Assembly: GCF_008087625.1 (NCBI RefSeq)
Contig: NZ_CP042997.1
Span: 5,022,001 to 5,086,000 of the forward strand
Reading direction: 5' to 3'
Length of the DNA stretch: 64,000 nucleotides
Source: Aquisphaera giovannonii
Lineage (GTDB): Bacteria > Planctomycetota > Planctomycetia > Isosphaerales > Isosphaeraceae
Shown here: piece by piece, positions 11,276-60,906 of the stretch
Layout of the letters: every line of letters starts with the position of its first letter
Position numbering within the stretch: position 1 is the first letter of the stretch
Notes under the pieces: generated by a model
What the model saw: only the letters and a program-made list of their open reading frames with translations
Database searches by the model: none
What the model was told of the DNA's origin: nothing
Made by a program: the position numbers and the translations under genes

Positions 11276-11560
11276 ATGAGTACGGTGCTGAGGGGCTTCA
11301 TTCGCAATGGCCGAGTGGAGGTGGACGAGCCGATCGACCTGCCGGAGGGGACCGAAGTCGTGGTCGCCCCGGGGGGAGCAGGCCGGGACGACGGCCCGGT
11401 GTCGCCCGAGGAGATCGCTCGCGTCCTGGCGGCCATGCAGCGGCTCCAGCCGCTTGAGATTCCTGACGAGGTCGCGGCCGATCTCGACGCCTGGGAACGG
11501 CAGGTGAACCGGCGCGGGATCGAGCGCAGCGAGTCCGGCATCGAGGACGTATTCCGGTGA
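11276..11560 (+). CDS. Antitoxin of a type II VapC-type toxin-antitoxin pair
   Basis: Small protein of 94 residues. The N-terminus MSTVLRGFIRNGRVEVDEP and LPEGTEVVV resemble the short beta-rich DNA-binding domain of DUF104/AF2212-type and related antitoxins. The C-terminal half is a charged helix (SPEEIARVLAAMQRL, then LDAWERQVNRR) of the kind that wraps the toxin. An AGGAGCGAGG stretch precedes the ATG. The stop overlaps the next start by 4 nt (GTGA), so the two proteins are translationally coupled. It should neutralise the PIN toxin and repress the operon. Confidence 0.72.
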   Translation: MSTVLRGFIRNGRVEVDEPIDLPEGTEVVVAPGGAGRDDGPVSPEEIARVLAAMQRLQPLEIPDEVAADLDAWERQVNRRGIERSESGIEDVFR

Positions 11561-11970
11561 GGCGATTCATTCTGGACACCGGCATCGCCGGGCTTTATCT
11601 CGACCGGAAGCGCGGGGTGTTCGAGCGGGCCGCGGCCGAGGTCGCCGCCGGCAACCGGGTCGGGGTCGCCGGCCCGGTCGTGGGCGAGCTGGCTTTCCGC
11701 GCCGAGGGCAGCCCGAAGCGGGAGCAGAACCTCCTGCGGCTCCGCGAGGCATTGGATGTCTGGAAGGTCTGGCTGGCCGACGTCGCGGCCGAGTTCGAGT
11801 ACGGGCGGATCGCGTTCGAGATGAAGACCATCGGCCGCCCGATCGGCCAGAACGACCCGACGATCGCGGCCATCGCGTACACCCTGGGCAATGCCACCGT
11901 GGTCACGATGGACGCCGACCTGTCAGCCGTGCCAGGCCTGAACGTCGAGAATTGGGCAGAGCCGGATTGA
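11557..11970 (+). CDS. VapC-like PIN-domain toxin ribonuclease
   Basis: PIN-domain protein of 137 residues starting at GTG. The acidic active-site set is visible: D in FILDTGIAGLYLD near residue 7, E in VVGELAF near 45, D in GQNDPTIAA near 99, and D in VVTMDADLSAVPGL near 119. This is the VapC pattern (Mg2+-dependent cleavage of tRNA or rRNA). The gene appears complete, unlike the two broken vapC copies upstream. It is coupled to its antitoxin. Confidence 0.85.
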   Translation: MRRFILDTGIAGLYLDRKRGVFERAAAEVAAGNRVGVAGPVVGELAFRAEGSPKREQNLLRLREALDVWKVWLADVAAEFEYGRIAFEMKTIGRPIGQNDPTIAAIAYTLGNATVVTMDADLSAVPGLNVENWAEPD

Positions 11971-12196
11971 AGCGGGCCGCGGAGTGGCAGCGTGCCACCC
12001 GAGGAATCAAGGGCTCCCGCGCCTTTCCGCCCATTGGCACCGCGATCTTTGGCGGATCCTCTCTGCCTTCGACCCGAATCGGACGGCCATCCTGCGGATC
12101 GGCGGCAACAAGCGGGGCGATAGGCGCTGGTACAAGACGTTCATCCCCATCGCCGACGAGCGATTCCGGCGGCACCTGGAACGCCTGGAGCAGTGA
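11971..12196 (+). pseudogene. HigB/RelE-like (Gp49 family) toxin, N-terminally lost
   Basis: The segment LWRILSAFDPNRTAILRIGG followed by NKRGDRRWYKTFIPIADERF is the C-terminal half of phage-derived Gp49/HigB-like toxins (family form: FDPxRxAILLxGGxKxGxxxWY). It is joined in frame to unrelated residues; the usual lead-in (KGSR...MKELR) survives only as a hint (IKGSRAFPP) in another frame, and the first half of the toxin is absent. It ends with a stop at 12194-12196, 7 bp before the intact antitoxin gene. Confidence 0.65.
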
Positions 12197-12203
12197 GGGA
12201 CTC

Positions 12204-12539
12204 ATGGCGACGCGACTCGAAGATTACCTGGCCACCCTGCCGGCGGCCGAGCAGCAAGCCCTCCGCGATCGGGCGGCGGAGCTGATCGCCGAGGAGGCGA
12301 CGCTCCGCCAGTTGCGGGAGGCCCGAGCGCGGACCCAGGTCGAGTTGGCGAGGGCCCTGCGCGTCAACCAGGCCGCCATCTCCAAGCTGGAGCGCCGCAG
12401 CGACATGGACCTGAGCACGCTGCGGGGCTTCATCGAGGCCATGGGCGGCCAGCTCGAGATCGTCGCCCGCTTCCCCGACCGTTCCGTGCGGATCAACCAG
12501 TTCGAAGCCCTCGACCCCGACCCCCGCCCCGAAGGCTAG
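12204..12539 (+). CDS. XRE-family antitoxin (HigA-like) whose toxin has decayed
   Basis: Protein of 111 residues. A helix-turn-helix of the XRE type sits at roughly residues 35-90: LRQLREARARTQVELARALR, then VNQAAISKLERRSDMDLSTL and FIEAMGGQLEIVARFPD, the standard form of antitoxins partnered with Gp49/HigB toxins. The ATG at 12204 follows GTGAGGGACTC. Its reading frame is intact although the toxin gene just upstream is not, so it may persist as an orphan repressor or anti-addiction module against related toxins elsewhere in the genome. Confidence 0.85.
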   Translation: MATRLEDYLATLPAAEQQALRDRAAELIAEEATLRQLREARARTQVELARALRVNQAAISKLERRSDMDLSTLRGFIEAMGGQLEIVARFPDRSVRINQFEALDPDPRPEG

Positions 12540-12703
12540 ACGCCCGACACCACCGAGGGACCAGACATCCGCATCGCAAGACCGGCCATAACCCGATCAA
12601 AGCGGTCGGAGGCTCTTTCAAAGTATCTACGCGATAACCAAAAACCTGACCTGACCCGGAGACCCCTAGCAAGCGGGCTGAAAACCGCTGAGAGGATTCG
12701 CGC

Positions 12704-13522
12704 ATGTTTATCCAGGGAGCTGATCCAACCGCGGGAAGCTCGGAGATGAACGACCCGCACGTGGTGTCGCTTACCTACCGGGTGAAGACACCACCGGACG
12801 TGTCGTTCGATAACCCTCCGGCCGTCGAAGGCGATCAGTCTGCCTTCCATTACCGCCTCGAGGCCGGGAGGCTCGTAGCGACCATGAAGGACCACTTCGC
12901 CACAGAGCGCGAGGCGAGGGATTGCGTAGAGGAGTTTCTCCGCGCCTGGGAGCTTGACGCAGCGTTAAAGGCGGACAAGAGCGAGTTTAGGTTCGCGTTC
13001 CAGCAATCGCACGTCATCGACCGAAAGCCAACCTCGGCGCGCGGCAAGGTCATGGGCGTGATGGACATGTTTGTCATGTCTGACGAGGCGAAGGTGGAGA
13101 AGGTCAAAACAGCCTATCCCGCTCCACCGTCGGGACTGAAGCCGTCGCTCGATACCGAGACGATGTGGCACCACTACAATCGCTTTCTCGAAGACCGCGA
13201 GAAGATCACCTCAATGGGCTTCTACTGCCTGAGCCTTCTTCAATGGCGCACCGGCAGCAAGAAGGCGCGGCAGGCCGTCGCTGGCCAGTACAAGATTCAG
13301 AAGGACGTGCTCGACACTCTCGGCACGCTGACTTCCGACGTCGGTGACCTAACGACCGCACGAAAGCTGGAATCGTCGAGCCAAGTGCGTTCGCATACCG
13401 CGAAGGAAGTTGATTGGATCAAGGCGGCCGTGAAAGCTCTGATCCGGCGGAAAGCCGAATACGATCACGATCCTACCGCCACGCTCTCTGAGATCACGAT
13501 GAGCGATCTACCCCAGATTTGA
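12704..13522 (+). CDS. Protein of unknown function at the start of the low-GC island
   Basis: Protein of 272 residues that I do not recognise as a named domain family. The N-terminal half is mixed alpha/beta (HVVSLTYRVKTPPDVSFDNP, FHYRLEAGRLVATMKDHF). The C-terminal half is helical with MWHHYNRFLEDREKITSMGF, a KKARQAVAGQYKI segment and a final basic helix WIKAAVKALIRR. No signal peptide or membrane span is seen. GAGAGG precedes the ATG by about 7 nt. Codon use is less GC-biased than in flanking genes, consistent with transfer. It lies 440 bp upstream of the methyltransferase on the same strand; a functional link is possible but not shown. Confidence 0.7.
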   Translation: MFIQGADPTAGSSEMNDPHVVSLTYRVKTPPDVSFDNPPAVEGDQSAFHYRLEAGRLVATMKDHFATEREARDCVEEFLRAWELDAALKADKSEFRFAFQQSHVIDRKPTSARGKVMGVMDMFVMSDEAKVEKVKTAYPAPPSGLKPSLDTETMWHHYNRFLEDREKITSMGFYCLSLLQWRTGSKKARQAVAGQYKIQKDVLDTLGTLTSDVGDLTTARKLESSSQVRSHTAKEVDWIKAAVKALIRRKAEYDHDPTATLSEITMSDLPQI

Positions 13523-13962
13523 CCGCAACCCGATGGGACAACTGGTGTTACTTCTGCGCCTACTCGCGGACTCCGCTGCGCGCGCTGCCCCGGCCGCATG
13601 GGGCCCGTCTGGCGTGGATTCGAACTCTCGATGACGAGTCATTCCAGCTGCGGGTCGTCTGCGAGCTGTCGTTTCGCGGTCTTCCCACAAGAGACCTCAA
13701 CGTGATGCCCAGATTCTGGTATCACGCGAGCCGTCGCTCCCTGTTCCCCAAATCTAGCGCCCTGAGCCGTAAATTTGGGATGGACAGGGACTTTTGGAGA
13801 TTTCGGGAAAACAGAAAGGCCGGGTTGCATGGGGTTTCCGGGCGATACTGTTGAAACCGCCTCTCCCGTCGGCTCTAATCTTACTGGACAGGCGTCTCGA
13901 ACACGTCATGCACGTGTGCACGCCAAGGCCGCAGGTCGGTTATCGGTCGAGGGTTGTTACAG
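13523..13962. other. Spacer of 440 bp inside the low-GC island
   Basis: No gene is supported; short frames lack start signals. A GATTCGAACTCTCG segment near 13617 resembles a reversed tRNA T-loop, but its stem does not pair, so no tRNA is called. The promoter of the methyltransferase operon probably lies in its right-hand part. Confidence 0.5.
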
Positions 13963-16845
13963 ATGAGCATGGGCTACGATGTAGCAGGTCAGAGGAGCCG
14001 CCTCGTCGCGGACGCCCTGCTGCACGTAGGCTACAGGGCCGAGCACATCAAGCATTCTTGGAAGTATAGCAACTTCGAAGAGATGAGGAAGTGGATCGAC
14101 GACGACGATCCCGACAATCTCCCCGAACATAAAGCCCCTTCGATACTTGATATCGCCGCATTCTATGATGAGCGAGAGCACGACTGGAACACGATTTCAC
14201 TTGCAGCTCAGCTCAACCGAATTGAGTTGGTGCATAACAAGGATCTCGGGCACCAGGAAGCAAGAAAGATCTTCGCCGACACCGCCTCGCCGTGCGTCCT
14301 CTTCGCGGGCAACGGGACGGCCGACCTCTGGCTTAGGTGCTGGGAAGAGCCCGTACCCGTAATGGACATCACTTTCGAGGCACAGCAGCTTCGGAAGGCG
14401 TTCGAGCATAATCGCCGCGAAATGGAACGAGACGCTCTGGCTGCCTTGCGCGGCGGACAGAGATATCTATTCGACGGTTGGCACACCGCACGACGTGAGG
14501 AGCTCGCGACGTTCCTCAACCGCGGGATCACGAAAGCCACCTGGTTCAGTCAGAAGATTAAGAAACCACTTGACGCAGATTCCGGCAGGGCGCTTTCCCG
14601 TATTGCGATCGGCCTCCTGGCGGCGCGTATCCTCGAAGACAAGGGCATCTTCGGAAGTCGCGATCAGCAATCGACCGATGCGAGGAAGCTACTTCAGGAG
14701 GCGAACGACCTCGCCGATGGGTTCTTTGGCCATCTGATCACTGGCGACTTGGAAAAGCTGGACAACACGATCAGTTCGGGCATCGTCGACGAGATGCTGC
14801 GGCGAATCATGGCCCACCTAACTGGTCCGGCTTCCTTCTCGATGGTCACCGCCGAGATGCTCGGCCACCTCTACGAAAACGCTCTCAGGGCCCAGCGAAG
14901 GCAGGGCAAAGACCTGGAGTTAAATGGCGTCTACTATACCCCGCTCTCCCTCACCAGGAATGTATTGGCTCGCATCCCGGTCGAAGAGCTGCCTCCGAGG
15001 AGACGGCACGCCCTAGACATGGCCTGCGGTTCGGGAACGTTCCTGCTCGCCGCCTCTGAACGCCTACGATCGGCCTTTGACGCCAACGAATCGGAGTCTG
15101 AACGATCGGTCATTGAACACCTCCGCCGACACGTCGTCGGGAACGACGTAGATAGCGTCGCCTTGCATGTCGCGGGCCTGACCTACTTGCTCGAACACGT
15201 GATTCAGACTGGCAGTGCGGACGATGTTCCGAGTCCGGCGCTCTGGACGAAGGATGCGCTGGATCTCCAAGTCGAGAATTTCGGAGTGAGTCGCCCTTCG
15301 ATCGTGGTGGGAAATCCTCCCTTCGGGAGGGCCAAGAACGGAGATCAACTGGCGAATCAGTTTCTATCGAAAGCCTTGGAAATCCTTGCGCCCGGAGGAT
15401 TCCTCGGGATGGTGATGCCCGGGGCCTTCCTGAAGATGATGCAGCGAGGAGGAGTGATTGCGAGTCGGCGCGAGTTGCTCGATACCTGCAACATCATGGA
15501 AGTTTGGGAGATGCCGCTCGGCGTGGTCGGACTCTCCGCACAGCAGGAGACGTGCGTAATCATCGCCCGCAAGAAAGAAAACAGAAGCGGTCTCACCCCC
15601 ACTCTCTTCAATGTCACTTATTCACGTAAACAAGAAGCGATTCGGGCTCAGCGTGAGCATCTAAGATCGACCTGGACGTTCATGGCCACGGGTGTTGCTG
15701 GAAGACCTTCTGAACACTGGTCTCAGGACACAACCGGTCGGATCATCGCGAGCCCCATCGATCATGTGTGGCAGAAGATCGAGCCATTGCGTCCGATCTC
15801 TGCGATTTGCGACCACACGGTTGGGATCTATTCCCACCTGGAGAAGACTAGATTCTCTAGGACTCCAACTAAAGGCTACTACCCGTATCTAAGGTCTCAG
15901 GGACGAGTCTCGCCTTACTTCGTCGATGAGGCAGACTGGAAACAGGATCCTGACCACGATCACGATTATGTGGACCCCGATACCTCTGAGCGACCTCGAC
16001 ATGACAAAAGATACCTGATTCTTGGTCCCAAGCTCATCGTAACGAGCAATACAAACCGCAACACCCGAATCCAGGTCAAAGCGGCATTCGACGACTCTCA
16101 AGTCTTCCCAGAGCACAATCTTTACTGCCTAGGTCTCTTCACAGACAGTTCTTCCCTACAGCCGTGGGCGCGTGAGTTAATCTCGAAAACCGATCGAAGG
16201 AACCTCTTGCTTTGGCTTGCATCCATTCTGAACAGCCCCTTAGCGCGAGCGTGGGTCGCGATGAATTCATCGCCGCGATCATCTGCTCTCGAAGTCTTTA
16301 TGCAGCTACCACTCCCACGGTACGACGAGTCACTTGCTAAACTCGTCGAGCGTACTGCCTCATATTCACGGTTCTCCGATGACTTCAATGAGATCTCCAC
16401 GCGGATTAATCAAGAGGTTCTCAGGACGTATGGGTTGTCGAGTGCCGACGAGGCCGATCTAAATCTCTTCCTGGAGAGTCTCACGGAACCGTGGGTGGAG
16501 AGTCCAAAGGACGCTCATCTGCCACAGCATAGGCTCTACCGTCGTATTTCGGGAACTGTCGTAGCAGTCGACGTCCTGCGACAGAGCGTAACACTCGATT
16601 TGCCTCGATTCTCCCGAAAACACCGTGCACCGATCGTGCTTGCGCTACCACGATTGTTGCCAGGGTGGGCTCTACGTGAGGGCATCGAGTTCACGTGCGC
16701 CGTGCCCGCCGACTGTGTGGAGGTTGGCGAGTTGCTCAGCGATCCGTGGATCCTTCGGGATTTTCGCCCGTTGCCATACTCCTATCTTGACGAAGAGGAG
16801 CTCGAGGAACTGGTCAATTTTGAGCACCCTGTACCCGCCCACTGA
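13963..16845 (+). CDS. N6-adenine-specific DNA methyltransferase (large, type I/IIG-like)
   Basis: Protein of 960 residues. Residues 1-300 form a mainly helical N-terminal region without a recognised nuclease motif. The methyltransferase core follows: YYTP at about 324, SAM-binding motif I DMACGSGTF at 352-360, and the gamma-class catalytic motif NPPF at 451-454, preceded by IVVG. The C-terminal 450 residues are expected to hold target recognition and a beta-rich tail. It should methylate adenine in DNA. Size and architecture recall PglX-like and type IIG enzymes, but no BREX genes, HsdR or specificity subunit are present. GAGGG lies 9 nt before ATG 13963. A metallo-beta-lactamase gene follows after 14 bp. 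Codon use differs from the chromosome, suggesting transfer. Confidence 0.9.
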   Translation: MSMGYDVAGQRSRLVADALLHVGYRAEHIKHSWKYSNFEEMRKWIDDDDPDNLPEHKAPSILDIAAFYDEREHDWNTISLAAQLNRIELVHNKDLGHQEARKIFADTASPCVLFAGNGTADLWLRCWEEPVPVMDITFEAQQLRKAFEHNRREMERDALAALRGGQRYLFDGWHTARREELATFLNRGITKATWFSQKIKKPLDADSGRALSRIAIGLLAARILEDKGIFGSRDQQSTDARKLLQEANDLADGFFGHLITGDLEKLDNTISSGIVDEMLRRIMAHLTGPASFSMVTAEMLGHLYENALRAQRRQGKDLELNGVYYTPLSLTRNVLARIPVEELPPRRRHALDMACGSGTFLLAASERLRSAFDANESESERSVIEHLRRHVVGNDVDSVALHVAGLTYLLEHVIQTGSADDVPSPALWTKDALDLQVENFGVSRPSIVVGNPPFGRAKNGDQLANQFLSKALEILAPGGFLGMVMPGAFLKMMQRGGVIASRRELLDTCNIMEVWEMPLGVVGLSAQQETCVIIARKKENRSGLTPTLFNVTYSRKQEAIRAQREHLRSTWTFMATGVAGRPSEHWSQDTTGRIIASPIDHVWQKIEPLRPISAICDHTVGIYSHLEKTRFSRTPTKGYYPYLRSQGRVSPYFVDEADWKQDPDHDHDYVDPDTSERPRHDKRYLILGPKLIVTSNTNRNTRIQVKAAFDDSQVFPEHNLYCLGLFTDSSSLQPWARELISKTDRRNLLLWLASILNSPLARAWVAMNSSPRSSALEVFMQLPLPRYDESLAKLVERTASYSRFSDDFNEISTRINQEVLRTYGLSSADEADLNLFLESLTEPWVESPKDAHLPQHRLYRRISGTVVAVDVLRQSVTLDLPRFSRKHRAPIVLALPRLLPGWALREGIEFTCAVPADCVEVGELLSDPWILRDFRPLPYSYLDEEELEELVNFEHPVPAH

Positions 16846-16859
16846 TCAGGAATTTATGC

Positions 16860-17972
16860 GTGCCGAAGACACTAAGAGTTCGCATCTTCGATGTTGGAGA
16901 AGGCAATACGATCGCCGGCATTCTGCCGGGAGGGCAGCGTGCGTTCATCGTGGATATCTTTGAGGCCGAGCCAATTCTGAGATTCCTAGAAGAAGAGGGG
17001 ATCACGGAAGTCGTTCTCTTCCTCTCGCATTCAGACCTTGATCACATAAAGGGAGTTAAAGACTTCCTCGCAGATTTTCAGCCTCCGCGTTCGATCCTAG
17101 GAATCTTCTTCAATCGAGATCGGATAAAGGTTGGTGCAGGCAAGACATACAAAAGCACCCTCCAACTCATCGGGAGCGTCTCGCAGCGAGAATCGGATCG
17201 GAACGCCCGTTACTTACGAGCCGAGTTTAACACAAACTTAAACGAAATCACTCGGTACGACGATCTTTTCGGACCCAACGTTCGCGCCCGGGTCATCCAT
17301 CCGGCACCACATCACCAGGATAGTCTCATCGATACCGATACGAACGAGGCGTCCGGTGTATTAGTAATTGAGCATCAGTTCGCGAACGGCACAGTGAAGA
17401 AGATAATGCTTGCGGCGGATGTTCAGTTAACAGGTGTCGCTCTGATGCTCAAGCAGGCGGCCGCCGGATCGCTCGGGGCAGACGTCTTGAAATTCCCCCA
17501 CCACGGGGCTTGGCCGACGGCTCGCCCTGGTGCGAAAGCGGTTGGAGTCGACAGGAAGGGGATGGACGATTTCCTACGAGCGGTATCTCCACGTTCGGTT
17601 GTCCTCTCAGTCGGCTTTAACAACCCGCACAGGCATGTTCGCGCCGAATTATTCGAGTCGCTCAAACAATACCATGATGACACAAACAATCTGGAATCTT
17701 TGAAATGCACTCAGTTCACCCCTACTTGCTTCGGTTCCGAGACGCTCCCCAAGGACGGCGAGCTTGCTCGTCCACATTGTGCGGGTGACGTTGAGATATG
17801 GACGGGCGAAGGAATCGGATCGGACGGCCTTGAGGTTGTAACGGTCCCTAACTCGCATCCGGATCGGGTCGCGTTGATACATCAGTCCGGCACTGCCCGA
17901 TGCGGATTCGTACCGGACATACAGAAGAAACTCGCCGGAGTAAACAGATCCACGTCGCCTCCGGCCTCGTGA
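16860..17972 (+). CDS. ComEC/Rec2-like metallo-beta-lactamase-fold hydrolase
   Basis: Soluble protein of 370 residues with the MBL fold of ComEC-type proteins but without ComEC membrane segments. Visible motifs: IFDVGEGNT at the start, metal-binding SHSDLDH at 56-62 (a serine replaces the first histidine of HxHxDH, as often in ComEC-like proteins), LAADVQ near 187, and KFPHHGAW at 211-218. A nuclease or nucleotide hydrolase role is likely from the family. It starts at GTG with AGGA 7 nt upstream and lies 14 bp after the methyltransferase stop, so the two form an operon. This pairing may be a defence module; the methyltransferase would mark self DNA and the hydrolase would act on other DNA, which is inference. 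Confidence 0.85.
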   Translation: MPKTLRVRIFDVGEGNTIAGILPGGQRAFIVDIFEAEPILRFLEEEGITEVVLFLSHSDLDHIKGVKDFLADFQPPRSILGIFFNRDRIKVGAGKTYKSTLQLIGSVSQRESDRNARYLRAEFNTNLNEITRYDDLFGPNVRARVIHPAPHHQDSLIDTDTNEASGVLVIEHQFANGTVKKIMLAADVQLTGVALMLKQAAAGSLGADVLKFPHHGAWPTARPGAKAVGVDRKGMDDFLRAVSPRSVVLSVGFNNPHRHVRAELFESLKQYHDDTNNLESLKCTQFTPTCFGSETLPKDGELARPHCAGDVEIWTGEGIGSDGLEVVTVPNSHPDRVALIHQSGTARCGFVPDIQKKLAGVNRSTSPPAS

Positions 17973-18433
17973 TGTCCGGAGCTAAATCGCCCACAAACTC
18001 GCATGGGGGCCAACGGGGAGGGGCGGCATTCGGGGCGGGGCGGCATTCGGGGCGGCGGCATTCGGGGCCACCCAGCCTTTGCGGCATTCGGGGCCACCCA
18101 GCCTTTGCGGCATTCGGGGCCACCCAGCCTTTGTGTTGCCCGGTACGGCTGCAGTGGGCCTCGCGGCCAGGGGGGCGAACGGGACGGAACGGGACGGGGC
18201 CGCCCAGCTTCCGTGTTGGCCGGATCGGCTCGATTCGACCTCGGACTTATCGGCCTACGACGGGGCCGAGCTCCGGATCACGGACCGGCGGGGTCGCTCG
18301 CGCAGGGGGAGCATCGCGCACGACAGCGGATGGGCAGTGGAGCGCCCACGTCGCGCCCGGCGTGCGGCGGCGGGCCCGGCATGGCATGGCGGGAGTGCGC
18401 GCGGGGAAGAGGCCGGCCTGGGGCCGGGGCCGG
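17973..18433. other. Spacer between the island and the HUH transposase
   Basis: It contains the repeat cluster at 18020-18132 (listed separately). The rest, up to the transposase stop codon at 18434, is GC-rich with no gene. The right boundary of the low-GC island lies near 17.98 kb, where composition changes abruptly at the first repeat. Confidence 0.5.
18020..18132 (-). repeat. REP-like tandem repeats downstream of the HUH transposase
   Basis: Read on the minus strand, the 17-mer AAAGGCTGGGTGGCCCC occurs three times with a 26-bp period (18064-18080, 18090-18106, 18116-18132), each joined by GAATGCCGC. Two or three shorter partial units (GCGGCATTCGGGG) precede them. The core is nearly the same as in the larger array at 19.8-20.4 kb (AAAGTTGGGTGGCCCC), but that array lies on the opposite strand. 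The two therefore flank the transposase gene as inverted repeat clusters. Confidence 0.75.
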
Positions 18434-20374: not shown

Positions 20375-20553
20375 ACGACCTATTCGCTTGACCCGCCGCG
20401 GAAGCGGATGCTCAACCGTAAGGAAATCCCGGAAAGTTCAGGAGGACAAGAGAGGGCACCAGATTCCAGCCGCAATCACGCAACCCCTCATTTTGACGAC
20501 GGACCCCGACTGCGATAGAATCCCTGGTGTGCCTGAACGGGAGGAAGGTGAAC

Positions 20554-20838
20554 ATGACCATACACTTACCTGAAGAGCTGGCATCGTGCCTGGAGGCGGC
20601 TGTTCAGGGCGGCCACTTCGCCACGATGGACGAGGCCATGGCCGAGGCCGCCCGGCTGCTGCTCCGCGAGCTCGAGCGGCCTGCGGGGGCGGCGACGTCG
20701 CCCGGCGTTGCCGGCATGCCCGACCCGGCGCTGGGCTCCATCGGCGCCATGCGGGAGGATGCCGGGCTCCTCGACGAGATCGTGGCCGACGTGTATCGTC
20801 GGCGGCGGGAGGAGAAGCCGCGGGGATTCGACCTTTGA
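20554..20838 (+). CDS. VapB-type antitoxin (ribbon-helix-helix-like)
   Basis: Protein of 94 residues. MTIHLPEELASCLEAAV is the typical N-terminus of CopG/ParD-like antitoxins: one beta strand, then two helices (GGHFATMDEAMAEAARLLL). The C-terminal half is a charged linker and helix (LLDEIVADVYRRRREEKPRG) that should bind the toxin. GGGAGGAAGG lies 8 nt before ATG 20554. The stop overlaps the TTG start of the toxin gene by 4 nt. It is probably autoregulatory. Confidence 0.82.
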   Translation: MTIHLPEELASCLEAAVQGGHFATMDEAMAEAARLLLRELERPAGAATSPGVAGMPDPALGSIGAMREDAGLLDEIVADVYRRRREEKPRGFDL

Positions 20839-21251
20839 ACAGGGCCCTCCTCGACACGGACATTTACTCCGAGATCCTCAAGGGGATCGACCAGACGGTC
20901 AGGGCCAATGCCATCGCCTACCGGACGCAGCACGGCGTCCTGACGCTCTCGGCCGTCACGCTGATGGAAATCGCGCAGGGTCACCATCAGAGGCAGGCAT
21001 CGCGTCAATTGCTGCACTTCCTCGCGAGCGTCGCCGTCGAAGAAGTCCTCCCTTTCGACCGGGATACCGCCGAGCTGGCCGGTCGCATCGCCGGGGAGCT
21101 GGAGCGCGTCGGCCAGCCCATCGGCACCGCGGATCCGATGATCGCCGCCATCGCCCTGCATCATGGCCTGGAGCTGGTGACCGGCAACACCGGCCATTTC
21201 CAGCGGATCCAGCAGATCGGCTACCCCCTCATCCTGGTCAACTGGCGGTGA
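20835..21251 (+). CDS. VapC-like PIN-domain toxin ribonuclease
   Basis: PIN-domain protein of 138 residues starting at TTG, which overlaps the antitoxin stop. The catalytic acidic residues are in place: D in ALLDTDIYSEIL near 7, E in VTLMEIAQGH near 45, D in IGTADPMIAAIAL near 98, and the last site in LVTGNTGHF, where N replaces the usual D (the TxNxxHF form is common in this VapC branch). It appears functional. It sits beside the REP array, a common landing zone for mobile modules. Confidence 0.88.
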   Translation: MNRALLDTDIYSEILKGIDQTVRANAIAYRTQHGVLTLSAVTLMEIAQGHHQRQASRQLLHFLASVAVEEVLPFDRDTAELAGRIAGELERVGQPIGTADPMIAAIALHHGLELVTGNTGHFQRIQQIGYPLILVNWR

Positions 21252-59139: not shown

Positions 59140-60906
59140 TCAGTTCCATTCGTAGCCCATAGCCCCAGTGTACCTCTCGAATCTTTGATCAAACCGTGAT
59201 TTAATGGATTTCAGTCGATCAATTGACCCACCGAAGGCGCCCGCCTTCAAAAGAGACATGTCTGGGCCTACCTGGTCGATCAATTTCTGAAGCTCGGCGG
59301 CGACTGCACCCCCGCCTTGAAGGACGAACAGGCCATGCGGCCCCCACACATCAAGCGAACTTGGATTCCGCATATCTTCTTGGTCTGCATAAGACAGGGC
59401 GGCTATATATTCGAATCGATTAAAGGCTTCTCGAAATTCACGTTCCCCTGACACATAACCATAAAACTCGGGACGAAGCTTATCGAAGAGATGCTGGCTC
59501 GCAGGTAGCTTTTCAAATGCATCTGCTCCTGGAAGGTTTTTGGCAATCCCCTCAAACAGCTGCACAAGATAAGAGTCACCGATTCGATGCCAGAGGCTAT
59601 TCTTGGCACGCTTGCCAGTGCGGCACTGAGTGAGGAGAGCGGCTACGGCATCGTCTCGCTTCGCTGCCGCCGCGGCAACTCCGCAACCGTACATCAAAAG
59701 ACGAACTGGGTATAGTGCCACATGGCACACATCTTCAACGCAGTCGTTCATCTCTGAAGCGGAGGCGACGCACTCTAGGCAACGGACCCAGAGTTTGGCA
59801 TCCGTCCCCCAAAAACCTCCCGCGATCAGCATTGCAAGAAGCGGACCAGAGTCTGCCTCGTATGAGGAGATTCGAGGAGCGAGATCCCGAAAATTCATAC
59901 TCAGGTTTCGTCTGGGATATCTATCTCCGAGAAACAAGGAACTGACTCTCTCCGCCTCACTCATAAATATGTCATGGAGTCGGAGCCGGTACTTGTCCTC
60001 GGATATGTACTTCTTGACCGAGGCCACTGCCATCTGCTTGGTGAGCGGATGGCGCGAGGCGTCCATCGCCTCCATCGCCTCGATCTTTTCCTTGATCTGG
60101 CCGAAGAACGCGTCGGCTCCCATGCCCTTAATGACTTGAGCATTCCGACGCGTGCATATCTCCGCCGCCTTTCCAGACACGTCGCTGTATGCCGACCAAT
60201 AGGTCGTGAAGCGGCGGTTGGGGCACCTCTCAATGGCAGAGCGAAGCGCCACGTCCCACTCGGCCGACCATCCGCAAACGATCAGCCCGTACTCGTCGAA
60301 CACCTGGTCAAGGAGCTTGTCCATCTCCGGCTCGTACTCGGCGAGCTCTGCCTGGGTATTCTTGATGCGGATGTCCGTGTAATCGCCGTGAAGCTTGATG
60401 ATCGTGCATTTCGAGTGGACCAAGGGCGTCGCGCCCTTGGCCTGATCGGCACTCGCAATCACGTTCGGCGTGATTCCGACGGCACCAAGGGCCTGCTCCA
60501 TCAGGCGGTCGAAGTTCGTCGTGACGATGACGCGGATGAGCCCCTTCGCCACGAGCTCTGCAATGGCCCTATGCGCCTCCGTTGGAATCTTCTTCCCTTC
60601 CTCGATCTCCTCGGGCGTAGGATCGAAATACGGGCGTAGCGTGAAATGGCGGTCGGTTTCCTTCTTGGCGAGTTCTTCCAGCAGTACCGAGTAATCCGGC
60701 TGTTGGCCGAACGTTTCCTGATACCAGTCGGCCGGGTCTTTGTCTTCGGCGCCGGATAGAGTTGCCAGTCTCTTTGCAAGGTCGAGGGTGATCTCCCATC
60801 CAGTCTGGATACCGGAAGAGCGGGAGACGCCCGATCCGAGCAGGACTGCATAAACGCCCTTGGCGGAATAAACCGAGAACGCGAGTGAGACTAGTGGGTC
60901 GAGCAT
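59140..60906 (-). CDS. Stand-alone SIR2-domain protein, probable NADase defence effector
   Basis: Protein of 588 residues. Residues about 15-290 form a SIR2-like NAD-binding domain: GSGVSRSSGIQTGW at 24-37, TTNFD at 129-133 and KLHGDY at 171-176, which keep the catalytic Asn and His of the fold. The C-terminal 300 residues are helical and unrecognised, perhaps a sensor. In many anti-phage systems such domains degrade NAD+ on infection, causing abortive arrest. No partner gene is adjacent, so it may act alone. Codon use is markedly less GC-rich than the neighbours, and repeats lie at its left side, suggesting transfer. ATG 60906 has only a weak site upstream. Confidence 0.85.
   Translation of the reverse strand: MLDPLVSLAFSVYSAKGVYAVLLGSGVSRSSGIQTGWEITLDLAKRLATLSGAEDKDPADWYQETFGQQPDYSVLLEELAKKETDRHFTLRPYFDPTPEEIEEGKKIPTEAHRAIAELVAKGLIRVIVTTNFDRLMEQALGAVGITPNVIASADQAKGATPLVHSKCTIIKLHGDYTDIRIKNTQAELAEYEPEMDKLLDQVFDEYGLIVCGWSAEWDVALRSAIERCPNRRFTTYWSAYSDVSGKAAEICTRRNAQVIKGMGADAFFGQIKEKIEAMEAMDASRHPLTKQMAVASVKKYISEDKYRLRLHDIFMSEAERVSSLFLGDRYPRRNLSMNFRDLAPRISSYEADSGPLLAMLIAGGFWGTDAKLWVRCLECVASASEMNDCVEDVCHVALYPVRLLMYGCGVAAAAAKRDDAVAALLTQCRTGKRAKNSLWHRIGDSYLVQLFEGIAKNLPGADAFEKLPASQHLFDKLRPEFYGYVSGEREFREAFNRFEYIAALSYADQEDMRNPSSLDVWGPHGLFVLQGGGAVAAELQKLIDQVGPDMSLLKAGAFGGSIDRLKSIKSRFDQRFERYTGAMGYEWN

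Follow-up and report, generated by a model that had tools for sequence, protein, structure and literature searches.

A candidate methylase-antitoxin/toxin module pairing an adenine DNA methyltransferase with a ComEC-type metallo-beta-lactamase in Aquisphaera giovannonii

In a 64,000-nucleotide stretch of Aquisphaera giovannonii DNA (contig NZ_CP042997.1, positions 5,022,001 to 5,086,000; hereafter the window), the gene of an N6-adenine DNA methyltransferase (methylase) is directly followed by that of a soluble, ComEC-type protein of the metallo-beta-lactamase (MBL) fold. The explanation that best accounts for this pair, which we hold with somewhat more confidence than doubt, is a methylase-antitoxin/toxin module, in which the C-terminal tail of the methylase would restrain the enzyme encoded next to it. 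The evidence comes from the recurrence of the pair, from the exchange of the downstream gene among related methylases, and from methylase tails that track the kind of partner and that in two relatives are of antitoxin type.

Recurrence of the pair, exchange of its partner and matching tails

The methylase and MBL genes stand in the same order in nine loci, namely the window and eight others from Planctomycetota, Acidobacteriota, Myxococcota, a cyanobacterial plasmid and a provirus contig. When the methyltransferase alone was used as query against 392 genomes of the phylum, five other strong loci emerged, with an MBL gene directly downstream in three (L016, L017 and L020) and a PIN-domain gene in two (L018 and L019). 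A plasmid search with the methylase gave many partial matches to generic methylases, together with a Pseudanabaena plasmid in which the methylase and MBL genes overlap by 4 bp and an Agrobacterium plasmid carrying a methylase and then a PIN gene, adjoining a Shedu gene. An MBL-profile search added L022 (a Planctomycetaceae genome), L024 (Bryobacterales, with its MBL split over two open reading frames, ORFs) and L040 (in a genome titled Deltaproteobacteria and placed in Myxococcota by a tree tool), and a viral-contig scan yielded one more pair, L130; L021, L023 and L025 share their contigs with L016, L020 and L017, respectively. No relatives of the methylase were found in phage records, and no match was obtained in the viral-contig scan with PIN- or RES-paired methylases or in the plasmid search with the window tail alone. 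The gap between methylase and partner, exactly 14 bp in the window, is -68 to +24 nt in 21 of the 22 family loci and mostly amounts to a few bases; a feature of type II toxin-antitoxin systems, a two-gene unit that is adjacent and closely spaced, is present. The original prediction had described a two-gene module that should recur, and co-occurrence of the two genes is indeed not rare.

A toxin-like gene lies directly downstream in all 18 loci recovered by methylase-only searches, the window excluded (PIN in 10, MBL in 5, HEPN in 2 and RES in 1); over the 22 family loci, window included, the partners are MBL in 9, PIN in 10, HEPN in 2 and RES in 1. L158, whose methylase is a weaker match of another type, was left out of this census. 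Pfam confirmed PIN in 7/7 PIN genes tested and RES in L138, while its HEPN model scores 21.9 bits against a cut-off of 22.0 in L163 and has no match in the related L145 protein. The downstream partner of this methylase family is thus exchangeable. In a tree of the methylase cores, a 100/100 branch sets all MBL-paired members apart, and the methylases paired with RES or HEPN are nested within the PIN group, indicating that partner and tail changed together.

The methylase cores can be aligned, and the C-termini vary with the class of the partner. Under leave-one-out profiling, the tail of the window methylase reaches 109.1 bits with the other MBL-paired tails and 1.9 with PIN-paired ones, and 9 of 10 PIN-paired tails score 33-105 bits against the PIN-paired profile and no higher than 0 against the MBL-paired one. 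Two independent methylases end, as judged by sequence similarity, in antitoxin-type sequence that matches the toxin type encoded next. One is the RES-paired methylase of Rhizobium sp. Q54, in which residues 1-778 share 45.7% identity with the PIN-paired methylase of Agrobacterium and residues 803-945 match annotated stand-alone Xre/MbcA/ParS (RES-system) antitoxins of rhizobial plasmids; its next gene is RES, and supporting matches of the tail to PF09722, PF23125, TIGR02293 and NF049845 all lie below the curated cut-offs. The other is L156, itself a further exception to the tail-partner match in the leave-one-out profiles, whose final 49 residues share 45-64% identity with parts of small VapB-like ORFs (75-89 residues) from two further genomes of the phylum. 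Of the five such ORFs, four have directly after them a PIN gene homologous to that of L156 (E from 2e-20 to 9e-35, the space searched being small), and the fifth is cut by the end of its contig. These two relatives thereby resemble the RES-Xre and VapBC type II systems, with antitoxin sequence at the end and the cognate toxin type next, but differ from them in carrying the antitoxin as a fusion to a DNA methylase of about 800 residues.

Other gene neighbourhoods were also observed during these searches. L122:5251-10363 (-) and L124:3361-8467 (+) carry another methylase-MBL cassette, made up of an N6_Mtase protein of 452-455 residues, a double-HATPase protein of about 694 residues, a 220-residue protein and a ComEC-like MBL, and this is a second way for a methylase and an MBL to travel together. 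In three Planctomycetes genomes (L120:5994-8612, L125:5602-8160 and L126:5731-8293), two conserved genes encoding proteins of about 255-287 and 236-240 residues, with no Pfam family, precede a ComEC-like MBL, possibly as another MBL-effector module. At L009:8922-9395 (an MBL-paired cyanobacterial plasmid locus) and at L164:7416-7916 (PIN-paired), the gene immediately upstream of the methylase encodes a MerR-family regulator.

Architecture of the methylase and the MBL protein

The methylase of the window carries an N6_Mtase domain (Pfam, 5.2e-12), and its DMACGSGTF motif begins at residue 352. Its model (mean predicted local distance difference test score, pLDDT, 73) matches CamA, M.BseCI, type I M subunits, BrxX, DrdV, BsaXI and BpuSI in structure, with the methylase and target-recognition parts modelled in a single chain, as in type IIG enzymes. 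The overall model and domain order are those of the type IIG enzymes BpuSI, DrdV and BsaXI, from which the window protein differs in that E-x-K is absent from the presumed nuclease domain and a separate effector gene follows. In this regard, the first 140 residues are predicted to run helix-strand-strand-strand-helix-strand, the PD-(D/E)XK order, and the strand expected to hold E-x-K reads ISLAAQL; no aligned family member has E-x-K in this strand. The N-terminal domain is therefore presumed, from its modelled topology, to be a nuclease domain gone dead, an assignment that stays tentative because a PDB sequence search with the domain returned no relative and only the predicted topology stands behind it. 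We infer that the window methylase is active in methylation and that its tail, residues 841-960, binds the MBL.

The MBL protein contains FPHHGAW at residues 212-218, and HxDxDH, a later Asp and PHHG are conserved across 7/7 aligned homologues. It matches a ComEC-type profile at 1.8e-27, and Pfam Lactamase_B at 4.5e-4, slightly below cut-off. Its model (mean pLDDT 77) is nearest to the ComEC MBL domain 9ic4 (Z 27.5, root-mean-square deviation 2.5 over 253 residues), with a phosphorylcholine esterase next (Z 21.8) and then RNase J (Z about 16). Loss of the metal ligands would have spoken against the enzyme envisaged in the original prediction; they are kept, and the structure to which the model comes nearest is a nuclease domain. 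The MBL domain of ComEC is a Mn-dependent nuclease, an activity established for M. thermoacetica ComEC, and the two Asp of its HxDxDH motif are required for Mn binding (PMC8579336). By analogy, the window MBL is predicted to be a Mn-dependent nuclease. It shares fold and metal-binding motifs with the C-terminal nuclease domain of ComEC but is soluble and stands alone, without a membrane channel, and it has an additional C-terminal part modelled with low confidence.

The locus and its flanks

Both frames are open where the original prediction had placed them, with the motifs and the spacing it gave (Table 1). The methylase frame runs from ATG to TGA, an alternative in-frame TTG at 13954 giving 963 residues, and the MBL frame starts at GTG. 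As had also been claimed, the pair lies in a compositional island, with a GC fraction of 0.54-0.59 across 13-18 kb against about 0.72 for most of the window.

Table 1. Features of the methylase-MBL pair, in window coordinates (residue numbers refer to the encoded protein)
Feature	Position	Strand	Basis
N6-adenine DNA methyltransferase, 960 residues, type IIG-like scaffold	13963..16845	+	open frame, motifs, Pfam N6_Mtase, structural matches
N-terminal domain, residues 1-150, PD-(D/E)XK-like topology, no catalytic E-x-K; presumed dead nuclease (tentative)	13963..14412	+	predicted helix/strand order, alignment
Methyltransferase catalytic motifs DMACGSG (residue 352) and NPPF (residues 451-454)	15016..15324	+	family alignment
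Beta-rich C-terminal tail, residues 841-960, of a kind specific to MBL-paired methylases; proposed antitoxin domain that would bind the MBL	16483..16842	+	leave-one-out profiles, secondary structure
AGGA, Shine-Dalgarno-like, within the 14-bp gap ahead of the MBL gene	16848..16851	+	
Soluble ComEC-type MBL-fold protein, 370 residues; proposed toxin/effector nuclease	16860..17972	+	model and profile
Metal-binding motif SHSDLDH, MBL residues 56-62	17025..17045	+	kept in 7/7 aligned homologues
PHHG motif, MBL residues 213-216	17496..17507	+	alignment

The island is flanked by a PIN gene, an Xre-type helix-turn-helix (HTH) gene and a Y1/REP-type transposase. The transposase border had been anticipated, but what was described as toxin-antitoxin debris includes a PIN gene that is apparently intact. 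PIN-type genes at 11557-11970 and 20527-21251 (+), with small ORFs ahead of them, form apparently intact VapBC-like pairs on either side of the island, and the Xre-type HTH region (12043-12540) has a second genomic copy, 90% identical, at G000:C1:5591655-5592151. A 26-27-nt GCGGCATTCGGGGCCACCCAGCCTTTG repeat stands in tandem immediately 3' of the MBL gene (18006-18133). No clear insertion boundary was found in the flanking DNA, and in the two further genomes of the genus that were compared, the left flank and the right flank are not matched together. The upstream 272-residue ORF (12704-13522) has no family in the PADLOC, NCBIfam or Pfam scans, and no counterpart was noticed near related pairs, though none was specifically searched for; it is not counted in the module. 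A second low-GC island of the window contains a gene for a 588-residue SIR2-type protein (59140-60906, -) that matches the PADLOC candidate family PDC-S65 at 1.1e-196 and is a putative second defence gene of the window, as assigned by this profile.

A proposed mechanism and its alternatives

In the module that we favour, the large protein would recognise a DNA site and N6-methylate self DNA, its own nuclease domain being apparently dead, while its C-terminal tail would bind and silence the enzyme encoded immediately downstream. With the methylase present and the DNA methylated, the MBL would be kept inactive; loss of the methylase, its inhibition by a phage or its engagement by unmethylated incoming DNA could release the MBL, which would then degrade nucleic acid of the invader or of the host cell. 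The nearest precedent is PrrI-PrrC, a type Ic restriction-modification (RM) complex with a HEPN anticodon nuclease, where likewise a DNA-modification complex holds a suicidal nuclease in check as long as the complex is not disabled by a phage (PMC3710099). In the present case, by contrast, the proposed seat of restraint is the tail of the methylase itself, the window pair has no separate restriction or specificity subunit next to it, and the effector is MBL, PIN, HEPN or RES.

The main rival is direct restriction by the MBL, which would be the restriction nuclease itself, brought by the methylase through its tail to unmethylated sites and cutting foreign DNA only. The MBL model is nearest to a DNA nuclease domain, and a type IIG-like scaffold with an apparently dead nuclease domain would leave a place that the MBL could take. 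Against it, the enzymes in the same slot of relatives are PIN and HEPN (RNase-type) and RES (NAD-degrading), which do not cut DNA sites, and two of the tails are antitoxins. The methylase-antitoxin/toxin module fits better than simple restriction for precisely these two reasons, and we regard the rival as unlikely. The original prediction of an MBL effector in place of an endonuclease holds in part: the MBL does occupy the slot of the relatives' effector enzymes, but the toxins found in that slot and the two antitoxin tails favour a toxin with its methylase-borne antitoxin. An improbable alternative takes the pair chiefly for an addiction module that plays no part in phage defence and serves to maintain mobile DNA, the cell being killed when the methylase-antitoxin is lost. 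The low-GC island in a variable region would suit such a module, as would relatives on plasmids beside transposases and on a provirus contig; defence genes, however, are equally mobile, the Agrobacterium locus adjoins a Shedu gene, and a plain antitoxin has no need of a large DNA methylase.

The original prediction had also pointed to no named system with exactly this pair. PADLOC, NCBIfam and Pfam give no system call for it, no RM, BREX, MADS or 6A-MBL family reaches its cut-off, and a description of this module was not found in the open-access literature; on these profile comparisons, the pair matches no catalogued system. Membership of 6A-MBL, BREX (PglX), MADS (Mad2) or Lmu/DRT MBL is close to refuted: weak matches exist at the domain level, but the scores fall far under the curated cut-offs, at 34.7 bits against 220 for 6A-MBL (NF058524), 18.6 against 400 for BREX PglX and 28 against 720 for MADS Mad2. 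The name 6A-MBL, which could be read as adenine methylase plus MBL, was ruled out as a match, since its true member in this phylum, L014, adjoins an E2-ThiF-JAB gene and no methylase; both cases place a ComEC-like MBL within a proposed defence operon, but in 6A-MBL this is a ubiquitin-like operon with an E2-ThiF-JAB partner, whereas the partner of the window MBL is a methylase. The juxtaposition of an orphan methylase and an unrelated MBL by chance could draw on the lack of a known system label for either gene and on MBL relatives that exist without this methylase, but it is refuted by the recurrence of the same order and of the close spacing in nine loci from several phyla.

Several points weigh against the methylase-antitoxin/toxin module itself. 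To our knowledge, no MBL toxin occurs in any toxin-antitoxin pair, and the window tail matches no known antitoxin in family-profile scans. Two tails that are diverged or truncated, those of L023 and L025, fail to score as MBL-type, and the score of the L040 tail is weak (13.8 bits). The census is small and includes near-duplicates (L164/L165 and L018/L019), so that it represents fewer independent events, and ComEC-like MBLs also adjoin other genes, so that the MBL is not bound to this methylase; those of Geobacillus plasmids have no methylase neighbour. Furthermore, methylation activity, toxicity, neutralisation, the trigger and phage defence are all elements that we infer. The broader proposal is evenly poised in our judgement: methylation-licensed toxin systems would form a widespread class that has no name yet, built on one type IIG-like methylase scaffold with a dead nuclease domain and interchangeable antitoxin tails, each matched to a PIN, HEPN, RES or MBL toxin encoded downstream, and ComEC-type MBLs would be a new toxin class.

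Comparisons of RM with toxin-antitoxin systems, as guard and addiction modules, have a long history. This logic is known; an antitoxin lodged inside an interchangeable DNA-methylase scaffold, with an MBL branch, appears uncatalogued. A 2013 survey concluded that RM-associated HEPN domains are fused to nucleases and helicases and not to the methylases (PMC3710099). In contrast, the methylase itself here appears to bear the antidote, and antidote and toxin seem to change together. If true, this would provide a directly testable link between the marking of self DNA and programmed cell death, would add an MBL toxin to the known kinds, and would offer a natural swap series for the study of effector release by a DNA-modifying enzyme.

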